A model generated the notes under the pieces. The model was not told where the DNA came from. It made no database searches and worked only from the letters and a program-made list of their open reading frames with translations. A DNA stretch of 64,000 nt, from assembly GCF_018437505.1 (NCBI RefSeq), contig NZ_CP072467.1, positions 2,046,001 to 2,110,000 of the forward strand, in the 5' to 3' direction. A program made the translations under genes and the position numbers. Positions 30,133-34,054 of the stretch are shown in pieces (within the stretch, counting starts at the first letter, position 1; each line of letters begins with the position of its first letter). This DNA is from Spiractinospora alimapuensis (GTDB taxonomy: Bacteria > Actinomycetota > Actinomycetes > Streptosporangiales > Streptosporangiaceae).

Positions 30133-30326
30133 TGGCTACGCCAGCGCGTCCACGCCATCGTCTGGACCTGGAAGAACCAACGCGGGCTGGAACGCCACGA
30201 CGCCCGCACCACCGAAGGACCGTGGGCCCGCGTCTACCTACGCATGGCGCGCTTCACGCCGCCGTCCGGCGCCGCTGGCTCATCGACGCCCCACCAAAAC
30301 CATCACTCATCGCCAGCGACCGCCAA
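30133..30326 (+). pseudogene. 3' remnant of an IS982-type transposase
   Basis: The frame starting near 30133 reads WLRQRVHAIVWTWKNQRGLE, then RHDARTTEGPWARVYLRMAR; after a one-step frame change the text continues RRRWLIDAPPKPSLIASDR. This matches, segment by segment, the C-terminal end of actinomycete transposases annotated as IS982 family (pattern RQ-IESV---LK-QL-LE-HGGRT--GV-ARV-QR-LA ... G-P--RSLIAYDH). Only the last ~65 residues remain, with a frameshift and a lost stop. No inverted repeats or other parts were found. A dispersed repeat begins just after it. Confidence 0.6.
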
Positions 30327-30330
30327 TCAG

Positions 30331-30545
30331 CACACTTGGGAGTGTTCTCTGAGGGTTCTCGGGTGCGGGAGGGGGCGTCGCCCCTACTGGGGCGGCCACG
30401 CGGATGGTGCCCCGGCGGGGGCCCGGGCTTCGGCTCGCAGGACGGTCCGTGCTGGGCGTCCTGGTTGGTTGTCCGGAAGGATCGACACAGGCGAACGTCG
30501 TCCTCGCGGTCGCGAGTCTCCAGCACCCTCAACAGCGCCCCCACG
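30331..30545. repeat. dispersed repeat, copy 1
   Basis: Two blocks, 30339-30362 (GGAGTGTTCTCTGAGGG, TTCTC) and about 30462-30545 (GGTTGGTTGTCCGG, then GAACGTCGTCCTCGCGGTCG), recur in the same order at 57981-58140; the second block recurs again at 57640-57710. The repeats are degenerate. Read on the minus strand the second block gives similar peptides in all copies (L-x-x-R-D-R-x-D-D-V-R), so it may once have been coding. It lies between a transposase remnant and the kinase gene. Positions 29985-30570 otherwise hold no gene. Confidence 0.5.
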
Positions 30546-30570
30546 GGGCACAGCGGGGCAAAGCCACGAC

Positions 30571-32166
30571 CTAGCCCGGCGGGCGGGTGGTTCGGCTGAG
30601 GAGTGCGTACACCTGTCGAGCGGCGGCGTCGTCGGGGCCACGCAGGCGGACGAGGTCGGCGTGAAGCTGTCGTAGGTGGTCGGAGGCGTGTGGGTCCCCG
30701 ACCCGCAGCATGAGAGTGCCCAACTGGCGGCGGAGGGAGAGAGTGCGGTCGTCGGCGGGGCCGAGGGTCTGCGCGGCGTCGGCGACGAGGCGACGCATCA
30801 GGTCCTGCGCACCGGCGTTGTCACCCGAGAACGCGAGACACGTGGCGTACTGGCGTCGGCACCGGAAGACGAGGTCGAGGTCGGCATCGGGTCGCCCGGC
30901 GAGCGCGTCGGCGAGGGACGCGAAGGCGGGGGCGGCGGCCTGGTACTCCCCGGTCTCGAAGAGGGCGTTGGCCCAGTCCCACCACACGTCCACCACCGCG
31001 GGGTCGGTGGCGTCGTGGGTGTGCCGGGCGTCCCGCACCGCCCGACCCAACAGTTCCGCGGCCTGGGGGTAGCGGGACCGCGCCTTGAGTCGTTCGGCCT
31101 CGGCGCGAACGGCGGCGAGGTCGGGCCGTGCCCCGGTGGGACCGGCCGCGGGCCGCGCCGTCGAGCCCGTGCTGGGCGGCTCGGGGGCGGGGCCTCTCGC
31201 TGACGCCGATTCCGCGCCGCTCATCAGCCGGCTCGCCGCGGCGACGTACATCCGCGCGGGCTCGACCTCCTCCGACAGTGGAACCAGGCCGGGAAGGGGG
31301 TCGAGGTCGTCGACGAAGGGCAGCAGTCCGCGGTAGACCTCGTCCGCCGCCCCCGGGCGGTCACGGGGATCCTTCTCCAGCAGCGCGCCGACCAGTTCGG
31401 CCAGGGGCGCTGGAACCGTGGAGCGTAGTTGGCGCACACGCGGGGGCCGCTCGGACACGTGCTTGATCATCAGGGCGTAGGAGGTCGCGCCGGCGAAGGG
31501 CCGGCGCGCCGTCAACATCTCGAACAGCGAGCAGCCCAGGGCGTACAGGTCACTGCTGGCCGTGGTCTGCCCGGACTGAATCTGTTCCGGCGCCATGTAG
31601 GCCGGTGTCCCCAGGGCCTGACCGGTCTGGGTGATGCGGGAGAGCTCCGGCAGCCCCTCCCCCATGGCGAGACCGAAGTCGAGGACCTTTACGGTGCCCT
31701 CCGGTTGGAGGATCAGGTTCTCCGGCTTCAGGTCACGATGGACCAGCGAGGCGTTGTGAGCGGCCGTGAGGACCGCGCAGGTCTGGGCGCCGACACACGC
31801 CGTCCACCCGGCGGAGAGCGCTCCCCGCTCCGCGAGCAGGTCGGAGATACTGATCCCCTCGACCCGCTCCATGACGAGGTAGGGCCGCCCGGCGTGGGTT
31901 CCGGAGTCGTAGACGATGGGAACCCCGGGGTGGTGCAGCGCCGCGGTGACGCGGGCCTCCCGTCGGAACCGCCGGACGAGTTCGAGATCCGGCTCGGGGG
32001 TGGGGAAGCGCACGAACTTCACCGCGACCGTGCGGCCGAGGCGGTTGTCGACGGCCTCCCACACCTCCCCCATGCCGCCCCGCCCCAGGGGGAAGTGGTG
32101 GAGCTGGTACCGGCTGTCGAATCCCTCGTCCTCGTGGGTCGCACGCACCCGTGGATCAGTGGTCAC
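30571..32166 (-). CDS. soluble Ser/Thr protein kinase with C-terminal TPR-like region
   Basis: A 531-residue Hanks-type kinase. Nucleotide loop LGRGGMGEVWEA (about 28-39), catalytic Lys in AVKFV, active site HRDLKPENL, metal loop DFGLA, then GTPAYMAPEQ. The C-terminal half (from about residue 350) is helical with repeated RSRYPQAAELLGRAVRDAR and ALFETGEYQAAAPAFASLAD units that look like TPRs. No membrane helix is seen, unlike PknB. I chose the GTG at 32166 (GGGAGGA 7 nt upstream). It overlaps the 3' end of the methylase-like gene by 11 nt, so the two probably act together; the methylase-like protein may be its substrate. Confidence 0.9.
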   Translation of the reverse strand: MTTDPRVRATHEDEGFDSRYQLHHFPLGRGGMGEVWEAVDNRLGRTVAVKFVRFPTPEPDLELVRRFRREARVTAALHHPGVPIVYDSGTHAGRPYLVMERVEGISISDLLAERGALSAGWTACVGAQTCAVLTAAHNASLVHRDLKPENLILQPEGTVKVLDFGLAMGEGLPELSRITQTGQALGTPAYMAPEQIQSGQTTASSDLYALGCSLFEMLTARRPFAGATSYALMIKHVSERPPRVRQLRSTVPAPLAELVGALLEKDPRDRPGAADEVYRGLLPFVDDLDPLPGLVPLSEEVEPARMYVAAASRLMSGAESASARGPAPEPPSTGSTARPAAGPTGARPDLAAVRAEAERLKARSRYPQAAELLGRAVRDARHTHDATDPAVVDVWWDWANALFETGEYQAAAPAFASLADALAGRPDADLDLVFRCRRQYATCLAFSGDNAGAQDLMRRLVADAAQTLGPADDRTLSLRRQLGTLMLRVGDPHASDHLRQLHADLVRLRGPDDAAARQVYALLSRTTRPPG

Positions 32167-34054
32167 GACCGTTCCTCCCGGCATCGATCCCGCCGCTACG
32201 GACGGCCTGCCGGGCGAGGTGTACCCACTCCTCCCCCAGGTGGCTCAACTGACGCAGGCGGAGTTCGGTCTCGGCGATCCCACGCAGCAGGCTGCCGTAC
32301 TCCCTCTGTTCGTCGAGGGACAAGACGGGTATCCGCGCGTTGCGCACCCCGGAACGACCGGAGGTGGACCGTCCGCTGTCGCCCCGCTCGCCAAGAAACC
32401 CGGCCAGGAAGTCAGGGTCGAGGTGGCTCGCCGCGACGCGCAGCAGGGTCAGTGTCGGTCCGAGTCCCACCCGCTGGTCCTCGCGAACCACGTGGGGAAC
32501 CCCTTCTCCTCTCGGGGGGACGATCACGTCGCCTTGCCGGGTGATCACACTGTCGGGGGTCTCGTGCGTGCGCTCACTCGCCGCGCGTCCCAGGCGCAGG
32601 TCCTGGGCGGTCAGGACCGGAAGGGTTCCCTCGCCCAGCGCGAGGTCGTTGGGCGAGCGCAGGAGCCGCACCTGCCCCTGGGTGACCAGCGCCCCGAGGG
32701 TCGTCGTCCGAGCGGAGGCGGTCGGCGAGGGCGCGTCCTCGGGAACCGCGGGTGGTTCGAGCCCGGGCATCTCCCGCTCCGTCCGCCGCAGCAGGGCGAG
32801 CAGTTCCTCCTGCAGTCTCGGAAGCCGTTCCACCGCCTGTCGGTCGACTCTGCCGGTGAAGTGAGTCGCGGGCGTCAGGTCGACGTCGCCGTCCATGAGG
32901 TCGGCGACGGGAATCGCCCGGGCGCAGTCGCCGAGTTCCTCCCCGGCGAGGTGGCGAGCCCACTGCGCGCCGACCGTCCGCGCGTCGGCGGCGCCGGACA
33001 CGGTCAGCACCGACGGCGTCACGTCGCCGGGCCCCTCGGGCCGACGCAGCACCCACAGGTGTGTGGTCTGGTCAAGCGGCTTGGGGAGCTCCACCACCGC
33101 CCGGACACAGCCGGCCCGCAGCAGGTTGGCGCGGATCCGACGTCCCGAGCGTCGGCTCGCGGTCGCGGCGGGCATGCGCATCACGACGCTTCCACCGGGG
33201 CGCACGTGGGCGAGGCAGTGCTGCAGCCACGCGAGGTCCGGTTCGCCCTTCGGAGGCAGGCCATAGGCCCACCGTGGGTCCATGGCCAGCGCCTCCTGGT
33301 CCCACTGCGTCTCCCGCAGCGGTGGGTCGCACAGGACCACGCCGTTTGTCGCCTGGTCGGAGAAGGCGTCGGTGGTGAGGGCGTCACCGATCGCGAGCTC
33401 GCACCGGTGTCCGCCCAGGAGCAGCCTGGCCTGGGCGATGATCCCCCGGGCCGCGTCTCCGGCCTGCAGGAGGAAGTCGTCGGCACCGGCGCGCTCCGCC
33501 GCCAGCGGCAGAACCCCGGTCCGGCACGCCGGGTCGAGGACGTTCTGTCCGTGGTGTACCCCGGCGAGGGACACCATCAGGTCGGCGATCGCGGGCGAGG
33601 TCTCGTCGTCCTCCTGCCGGGCCCAGGTCTCCTGGAAACGATCACACAGCCCGTCGTACAGCTCCCGCGGACTGTCCGCCTCACCCGTGACGGAATCACG
33701 GTCCAGCAGCACGCCCCACTCGGGAGCAGGAGGTGGCAGGAGCCCGGTGACGTCGATGCCGGCCAGTTCCGCTCCCAGATGAGCGAGGAACTCCGTCATG
33801 TGCGCGCCGCCGACGGACTCCGAACGCAACCACAGCCGATCGGCCGAGGTGGGAGCGAAGGTCCTGTCGTGCCGCTCGCACCAGTCCTCAACCTCCGACC
33901 AGGAGAACAGGGGGTTGGTGGAGGTCCCCGACACAGGGCGTGGGAAGTCCGGGTAGCGACGACGCCAGTTACTCACCGCGGGGCGGCGGACCTCCGCGAG
34001 ACGCGCGATGTCGGTCGCGCTCAGGAAGACGTCGGCCGGTGGGTCAACGCTCAC
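32156..34054 (-). CDS. HTH - N6-adenine DNA methylase - HsdS-like fusion protein
   Basis: A 632-residue protein. Residues ~10-60 are a MerR/excisionase-like HTH (SATDIARLAEVRRPAVSNWR). Residues ~130-390 are an HsdM-type methylase domain with motif I LDPACRTG (usual form DPACGTG) at 173-180 and a CDPPL at 242-246 where active enzymes have NPPF/NPPY. Residues ~455-620 resemble one HsdS target-recognition half (LGALVTQGQVRLL, ITRQGDVIVPPRGEG, IPVLSLDEQREYGSLLRGI, EL-LRQLSHLGEEW). Both catalytic motifs deviate, so it may bind without methylating. No restriction gene is nearby; a soluble kinase gene overlaps its end. Similar pairs exist in other actinomycetes. Confidence 0.85.
   Translation of the reverse strand: MSVDPPADVFLSATDIARLAEVRRPAVSNWRRRYPDFPRPVSGTSTNPLFSWSEVEDWCERHDRTFAPTSADRLWLRSESVGGAHMTEFLAHLGAELAGIDVTGLLPPPAPEWGVLLDRDSVTGEADSPRELYDGLCDRFQETWARQEDDETSPAIADLMVSLAGVHHGQNVLDPACRTGVLPLAAERAGADDFLLQAGDAARGIIAQARLLLGGHRCELAIGDALTTDAFSDQATNGVVLCDPPLRETQWDQEALAMDPRWAYGLPPKGEPDLAWLQHCLAHVRPGGSVVMRMPAATASRRSGRRIRANLLRAGCVRAVVELPKPLDQTTHLWVLRRPEGPGDVTPSVLTVSGAADARTVGAQWARHLAGEELGDCARAIPVADLMDGDVDLTPATHFTGRVDRQAVERLPRLQEELLALLRRTEREMPGLEPPAVPEDAPSPTASARTTTLGALVTQGQVRLLRSPNDLALGEGTLPVLTAQDLRLGRAASERTHETPDSVITRQGDVIVPPRGEGVPHVVREDQRVGLGPTLTLLRVAASHLDPDFLAGFLGERGDSGRSTSGRSGVRNARIPVLSLDEQREYGSLLRGIAETELRLRQLSHLGEEWVHLARQAVRSGGIDAGRNGRDH

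Follow-up and report, generated by a model that had tools for sequence, protein, structure and literature searches.

Two adjoining genes of Spiractinospora alimapuensis, on the reverse strand of contig NZ_CP072467.1 (assembly GCF_018437505.1), encode a fusion of a helix-turn-helix (HTH) domain, an N6-methylase-like domain and one HsdS-like half, followed by a Ser/Thr kinase. They occupy positions 30571-34054 of the window, which is a stretch of 64,000 nucleotides (contig positions 2,046,001 to 2,110,000). We consider this pair to be, with reasonable probability, the orphan tail of a kinase-type class 1 locus of the phage-defence system DISARM, with a pseudo-methylase that binds DNA and is coupled to an active kinase. 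The reading rests on the descent and the architecture of the pair, the decay of the methylase active site, the conservation of the kinase and the absence of DrmA and DrmB from the genome. An earlier note on this DNA, made from the sequence alone, had described the location, the architecture and an 11-nt overlap of the two genes, and this description holds. Both reading frames are open and intact, and of the two possible kinase starts (ATG at 32184, giving a 29-nt overlap with the methylase gene, and GTG at 32166, giving 11 nt) the latter is favoured by a GGGAGG Shine-Dalgarno motif 7 nt upstream of the GTG.

Relationship to class 1 DISARM

In the methylase tree the window copy is sister to the copies of loci L032-L035 (support 100/99), and in the kinase tree, which was built separately, it groups with the DISARM kinases of L032-L035, L088 and L089 (support 100/99). 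The placement holds in a methylase tree of 124 rows that includes Nocardiopsis, two loci of which join the group. The four best methylase matches are encoded directly downstream of drmC on the same strand, and the gene order in such loci is drmD, drmMI, drmA, drmB, drmC, HTH-methylase, kinase, UvrD helicase and GmrSD. The assignments of DrmA, DrmB and DrmC come from PADLOC, run on L033, with scores in the loci of the DISARM relatives of up to 952 bits (DrmA), 233 bits (DrmB) and 352 bits (DrmC). DrmMI stands directly upstream of drmA with about 1640-1710 bits (PADLOC, three loci checked) and DrmD upstream of drmMI with about 1390 bits (PADLOC, two loci); individual scores are 1709 bits for DrmMI and 1398 bits for DrmD. 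With DrmMI and DrmD present, the loci of the relatives are complete class 1 DISARM systems, and the HTH-methylase is a second, accessory methylase in them. That the HTH-methylase is itself DrmMI was rejected: no DrmMI model is among the matches listed for 13 members of the family, the models gave no match to the window methylase, and the real DrmMI is found upstream of drmA. Both trees show the descent of the window pair from the tail of a kinase-type class 1 DISARM locus.

The sample for the DrmA search comprised 121 Streptosporangiaceae genomes, the same GTDB family as that of the window, and 17 of them carry the close DrmA type. The HTH-methylase adjoins this DrmA in 13 of the 17 loci and is missing in four; all 16 loci whose contig extends far enough carry the kinase, including the four that lack the methylase. 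The steadier member of the pair in this branch is the kinase. Where DrmA is of another type (11 loci), the 20-kb region contains neither methylase nor kinase, so that, together with the constant presence of the kinase in the close-type loci, the association is limited to one branch of DISARM. The kinase is apparently a regular and as yet undescribed part of this actinomycete branch. Neither the structural paper on DISARM (PMC9142583) nor the 2025 preprint on YprA helicases (PMC12458937) mentions a kinase, and it is with respect to these two sources that we call it undescribed.

The window pair descends from genes that stood directly downstream of drmC on the same strand, whereas the window itself contains no Drm gene. 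The DrmA query that matched 56 of the 121 genomes gave no match in the window genome, nor did DrmB (DUF1998), for which three control genomes were positive. A DISARM relic buried in the window was rejected, since tblastn searches with DrmA, DrmB, DrmC, UvrD and GmrSD returned background only. Locus L140 of Nocardiopsis sp. ATB16-24 looks like an intermediate stage of the loss of the core: drmA and drmB are gone, drmC is reduced to its last 106 residues, and methylase, kinase, UvrD and GmrSD are kept.

Active sites of the methylase and the kinase

The three-part composition of the larger protein, as read in the earlier note, was borne out. Pfam recognises N6_Mtase (E 2.9e-19), and the family profile matches an HTH DNA-binding domain over residues 9-57 (2jml) and HsdS subunits over residues 490-614 (5ybb, 3okg; E 4e-9). 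The structure model has high confidence for most of the protein (mean predicted local distance difference test score 84.5), its best PDB folds are type I and related N6-adenine methylases, and PADLOC labels the protein as a type I methyltransferase. The unusual motifs DPACRTG and DPPL, already pointed out by the earlier note, are both present and are rare within the family; only one further row of the 124-row alignment lacks the Gly of motif I. Fifteen of 100 near-invariant positions are changed in the window copy, the highest number among 123 full-length rows (median 1), and the changes are concentrated around motifs I and IV (8 of 26 positions, vs 7 of 74 elsewhere; Fisher p 0.014). Best preserved of all domains is the HTH, where 20 of 21 such positions are unchanged. 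Judged from these patterns, catalysis has probably been lost, and the fold, the HTH and the target-recognition region have been retained. Because of this retention the protein most likely still binds particular DNA. The suggestion of the earlier note that it may sense DNA without modifying it finds support.

Changes in the active site are not peculiar to the window copy. Motif IV begins with N or D in 91 of 123 rows; the other 32 have H, S, V, A, I, G, E or T at this place (by alignment, the motif reads CIPPF in L045 and L087), and the loss of the catalytic N/D needs at least 11 changes on the methylase tree. Ordinary HsdM relatives carry N in 16 of 16 cases, a seventeenth regular-expression match having been set aside as spurious. 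The losses are common in the DISARM loci and in a group beside sugar-transporter genes, and rare in a group associated with PP2C phosphatases (43 of 45 intact). Sequence pairs with a shared loss of N/D have ratios of non-synonymous to synonymous substitution rates (dN/dS) of about 0.20-0.44, and the proteins have therefore been maintained after the loss. The DrmMI of the DISARM loci carries NPPF, and its presence may explain why the HTH-methylase was free to lose its own catalysis.

The kinase presents the opposite picture, its motifs being intact while the relatives of the methylase lose the catalytic N/D. Pfam identifies Pkinase (E 5.5e-45) together with weak TPR matches (the best is TPR_12 at 2e-6), and hydropathy reveals no evident transmembrane segment in either protein, in agreement with the soluble kinase with TPR-like repeats proposed in the earlier note. 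The Gly loop, catalytic Lys, HRD, DFG and APE of an active Ser/Thr kinase are all found, and none of the three changes among 70 near-invariant positions is catalytic. By these motifs the kinase is apparently active, and its designation as the active partner of the pair can be maintained.

Distribution and genomic contexts of the family

Methylase relatives occur in 94 of the 121 sampled Streptosporangiaceae genomes, often several per genome, and full-length relatives with about 36-44% identity are found in a single genus outside this family but within its class. An alignment-based contig scan of a named genome collection yielded at least 571 encoded relatives, the best 80 of which come from Nonomuraea, Streptosporangium, Nocardiopsis, Amycolatopsis, Kribbella, Frankia, Actinomadura, Micromonospora and others; a single-protein scan of the same collection found none. 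No close relative was found on a phage or plasmid: the best plasmid match is 38% on an 11.9-Mb replicon, and phage matches cover the methylase core only.

The kinase adjoins the methylase in 111 of 135 surveyed regions, some genomes being represented in both collections. Outside DISARM a PP2C phosphatase, usually divergently transcribed, accompanies the pair in 47 regions (among them L038, L041, L044, L048, L092-L094, L097, L105, L112 and L120, and named loci such as L131 and L133-L136). At these loci the methylase is most often followed by a TPR-less kinase of about 295 aa. Nine regions (L037, L039, L104, L109, L132, L166, L169, L173 and L208) have the genes for HsdR, an M48-like peptidase, the HTH-methylase and the kinase side by side, which amounts to a type I restriction locus plus a kinase, and the HsdR-linked methylases form a single clade (8 rows, SH-aLRT 100). 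UvrD alone stands beside the pair in 15 regions. Since the pair occurs next to HsdR, UvrD and PP2C outside DISARM, it is not tied to DrmABC. A kinase-less branch of the methylase, possibly a regulator, is found at eight loci beside sugar ABC transporter genes, mostly with SPPF as motif IV; in L042, L051, L103, L107, L110, L113 and L194 it has the SPPF motif and adjoins genes for a sugar-binding protein and two permeases.

Comparison with known systems

The earlier note had seen kinship to the Pgl phage-limitation system. A kinase and an adenine-methylase-like protein are indeed shared with Pgl (type 2 BREX), but the kinship was not upheld: the kinase reaches 57 bits against a cut-off of 990 for the PglW model and lacks the PglW architecture, PglX is absent from the methylase matches, the methylase being HsdM-like, and no PglW, PglX, PglZ or PglY gene was seen beside the window pair. 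The remark that the phosphatase is missing is correct for the Pgl phosphatase at the window pair, whereas a PP2C phosphatase accompanies the pair in a sister branch. The PP2C fold differs from that of PglZ, and the pair plus PP2C is a trio of kinase, phosphatase and methylase that resembles Pgl in its parts, not in its families.

MADS combines HTH, methylase and kinase parts as well, with weak mad1 and mad2 matches and a kinase-domain match to mad6, but in the window protein the HTH, methylase and S parts are fused. Membership was rejected, as the scores (17.5 of 720 bits for MAD2, 134 of 460 for MAD6) lie far under the curated equivalog cut-offs. With type I restriction-modification the pair shares the homologous methylase fold and half-HsdS, and one sub-family stands beside HsdR and an M48-like peptidase. 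It differs by the added kinase, by the lack of HsdR near the window pair and by its catalytic motifs: DPACRTG and DPPL take the place of an intact motif I and NPPF/Y. The target-recognition domain of HsdS is matched. In CapK-CapS (PMC13373217), too, genes for a kinase and its DNA-binding partner accompany immune operons, but the two proteins are an anti-sigma-like kinase and a STAS-like repressor, with folds unrelated to those of the window pair.

Alternative explanations

Several observations weigh against an orphan DISARM tail with a pseudo-methylase. The branches that lead to the window copies are long (1.0 and 0.9 changes per site), the closest relative found has about 44% identity, and with no relative closer than this dN/dS cannot exclude functionless decay of the window copy. 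Moreover, the Asp of motif IV is retained in DPPL, and departures in motif IV are tolerated by some N6-methylases. The retained Asp, together with the PADLOC label, could point to an orphan N6-adenine methylase that is active and stands upstream of an unrelated kinase; Gly178 is replaced by Arg in the S-adenosylmethionine loop, however, further changes surround motif IV and the kinase partner is conserved in the family, and we regard this explanation as highly improbable. Quite unlikely, too, is a decaying leftover in which the remaining pair drifts without function after the loss of the DISARM core. The loss of drmABC, UvrD and GmrSD, the long branches in both trees, the extreme number of changed positions in the methylase and the transposase remnant and dispersed repeat adjoining the pair would agree with such decay, and L140 shows its possible first stage. 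Nevertheless, the open frames span 632 and about 531 codons, their overlap and the Shine-Dalgarno motif are intact, at a divergence of about one change per site the two proteins retain 85 of 100 and 67 of 70 near-invariant positions, and the catalytic set of the kinase and the HTH are undamaged.

Two further explanations assign a present function to the pair. It may be a transcriptional regulator pair, in which the HTH-pseudo-methylase acts as a repressor or activator and the kinase sets its activity. The good preservation of the HTH and the kinase-less sub-family beside sugar-transporter genes are consistent with this, and CapK-CapS, where a kinase controls a DNA-binding repressor upstream of immune operons, provides a precedent; the HsdS-like target-recognition half has been kept as well, which is unusual for a plain regulator, and we consider this explanation unlikely. 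A compact stand-alone defence or DNA-damage switch that acts at present, as the earlier note had suggested, is a tentative possibility. It would profit from the defence ancestry, the intact kinase and the occurrence of the pair beside HsdR, UvrD and PP2C outside DISARM, but the window holds no effector, and the identified neighbours are transport and metabolic genes. The phage-defence kinship supposed in the earlier note is supported by the relatives, which belong to a class 1 DISARM tail; the gene-neighbourhood survey that it had proposed was positive for them, while the window copy is isolated among genes for metabolism and transport.

Proposed mechanism

On the preferred reading, that of an orphan DISARM tail, we infer how the pair may bind DNA, in which direction it may signal, to what target and with what phenotype. 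The lineage of the window would have lost the DISARM core together with UvrD and GmrSD, which are encoded downstream of it. Through its HTH and HsdS parts the pseudo-methylase might mark DNA or sense its state, for example unmodified or occupied sites, and this binding could control the co-translated kinase. The kinase may then phosphorylate either the methylase itself or an effector such as a helicase or nuclease partner. In complete loci the kinase might act on DrmAB, the UvrD helicase or GmrSD; in the window genome, a candidate is the product of a UvrD-like gene at 1109297-1111384 (near 1.11 Mb), 64% identical to the UvrD of the DISARM loci. A continuing defence role for the window copy is possible.

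More generally, actinomycetes may possess a modular DNA-sensing signalling pair, consisting of an HsdM-HsdS-derived DNA-binding protein, often a pseudo-methylase, and an active Ser/Thr kinase, and class 1 DISARM, type I restriction and PP2C-regulated loci would each employ it as a module; its kinase would be obligatory in one DISARM branch even without this methylase, phosphorylation would be the control layer of that branch, and the window pair would persist alone. For this generalisation as a whole we hold the arguments to be evenly balanced. For the activation of DISARM without harm to the host, current models draw on methylation and DNA ends (PMC9142583). A kinase constant in one DISARM branch, beside a repeatedly decayed methylase and with the DrmMI motif kept, suggests phosphorylation as a directly testable control layer.

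Features of the window and further observations

Table 1. Positions of the gene pair, its domains and motifs, and the adjoining repeat and transposase remnant in the window.
Feature	Position	Strand	Remarks
HTH / N6-methylase-like / half-HsdS fusion	32156..34054	-	632 aa; GTG start, GAGGGGGG upstream
N-terminal MerR-like HTH, residues 10-62	33869..34027	-	match to 2jml; 20/21 near-invariant family positions kept
Methylase fold, residues 151-335	33050..33604	-	9/46 near-invariant positions changed
Motif I DPACRTG, Gly178 to Arg	33515..33535	-	Gly in 122/124 rows
Motif IV DPPL, aromatic to Leu	33317..33328	-	R249, G252, R269 and E273 nearby also changed
Target-recognition-like half-HsdS region, residues 441-625	32180..32734	-	5ybb and 3okg matches over 490-614
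Ser/Thr kinase with TPR-like C-terminus	30571..32166	-	GTG start; about 531 codons
Kinase domain	31321..32112	-	VAVK, HRDLKPEN, DFG and APE all intact
TPR-like helical repeats	30589..31119	-	weak Pfam TPR matches
Dispersed repeat, about 235 bp	30335..30570		about 25 genome copies, 75-87% identity; abuts kinase stop codon
Transposase C-terminal remnant	30133..30334	+	DNA 79% identical to genome positions 642904-643105; transposase intact there

The transposase remnant and the repeat noticed earlier beside the pair were verified by the match to an intact transposase of the genome and by the number of dispersed copies, respectively. The remnant is not recognised by Pfam; its sequence corresponds to the C-terminus of the intact transposase at L211:1411-2349 (reverse strand), and we take both to be IS982-like. 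The kinase gene takes its stop codon from the CCTAG end of the dispersed repeat.

The UvrD relative near 1.11 Mb belongs to a second locus of the same genome (L050, 1098001-1118000), which looks like a separate defence locus. It encodes a 2106-aa fusion of kinase, DEAD helicase and MZB, and the fusion gene is divergent from a distant methylase paralogue (motif IV HPPA) and the UvrD helicase.

The N-terminal stretch of the UvrD protein of the DISARM loci (L033:5064-7178 and relatives) recalls RelE, a resemblance for which Pfam gave no match; a RelE-like part has been reported for ArmD of ARMADA type II (PMC12458937).

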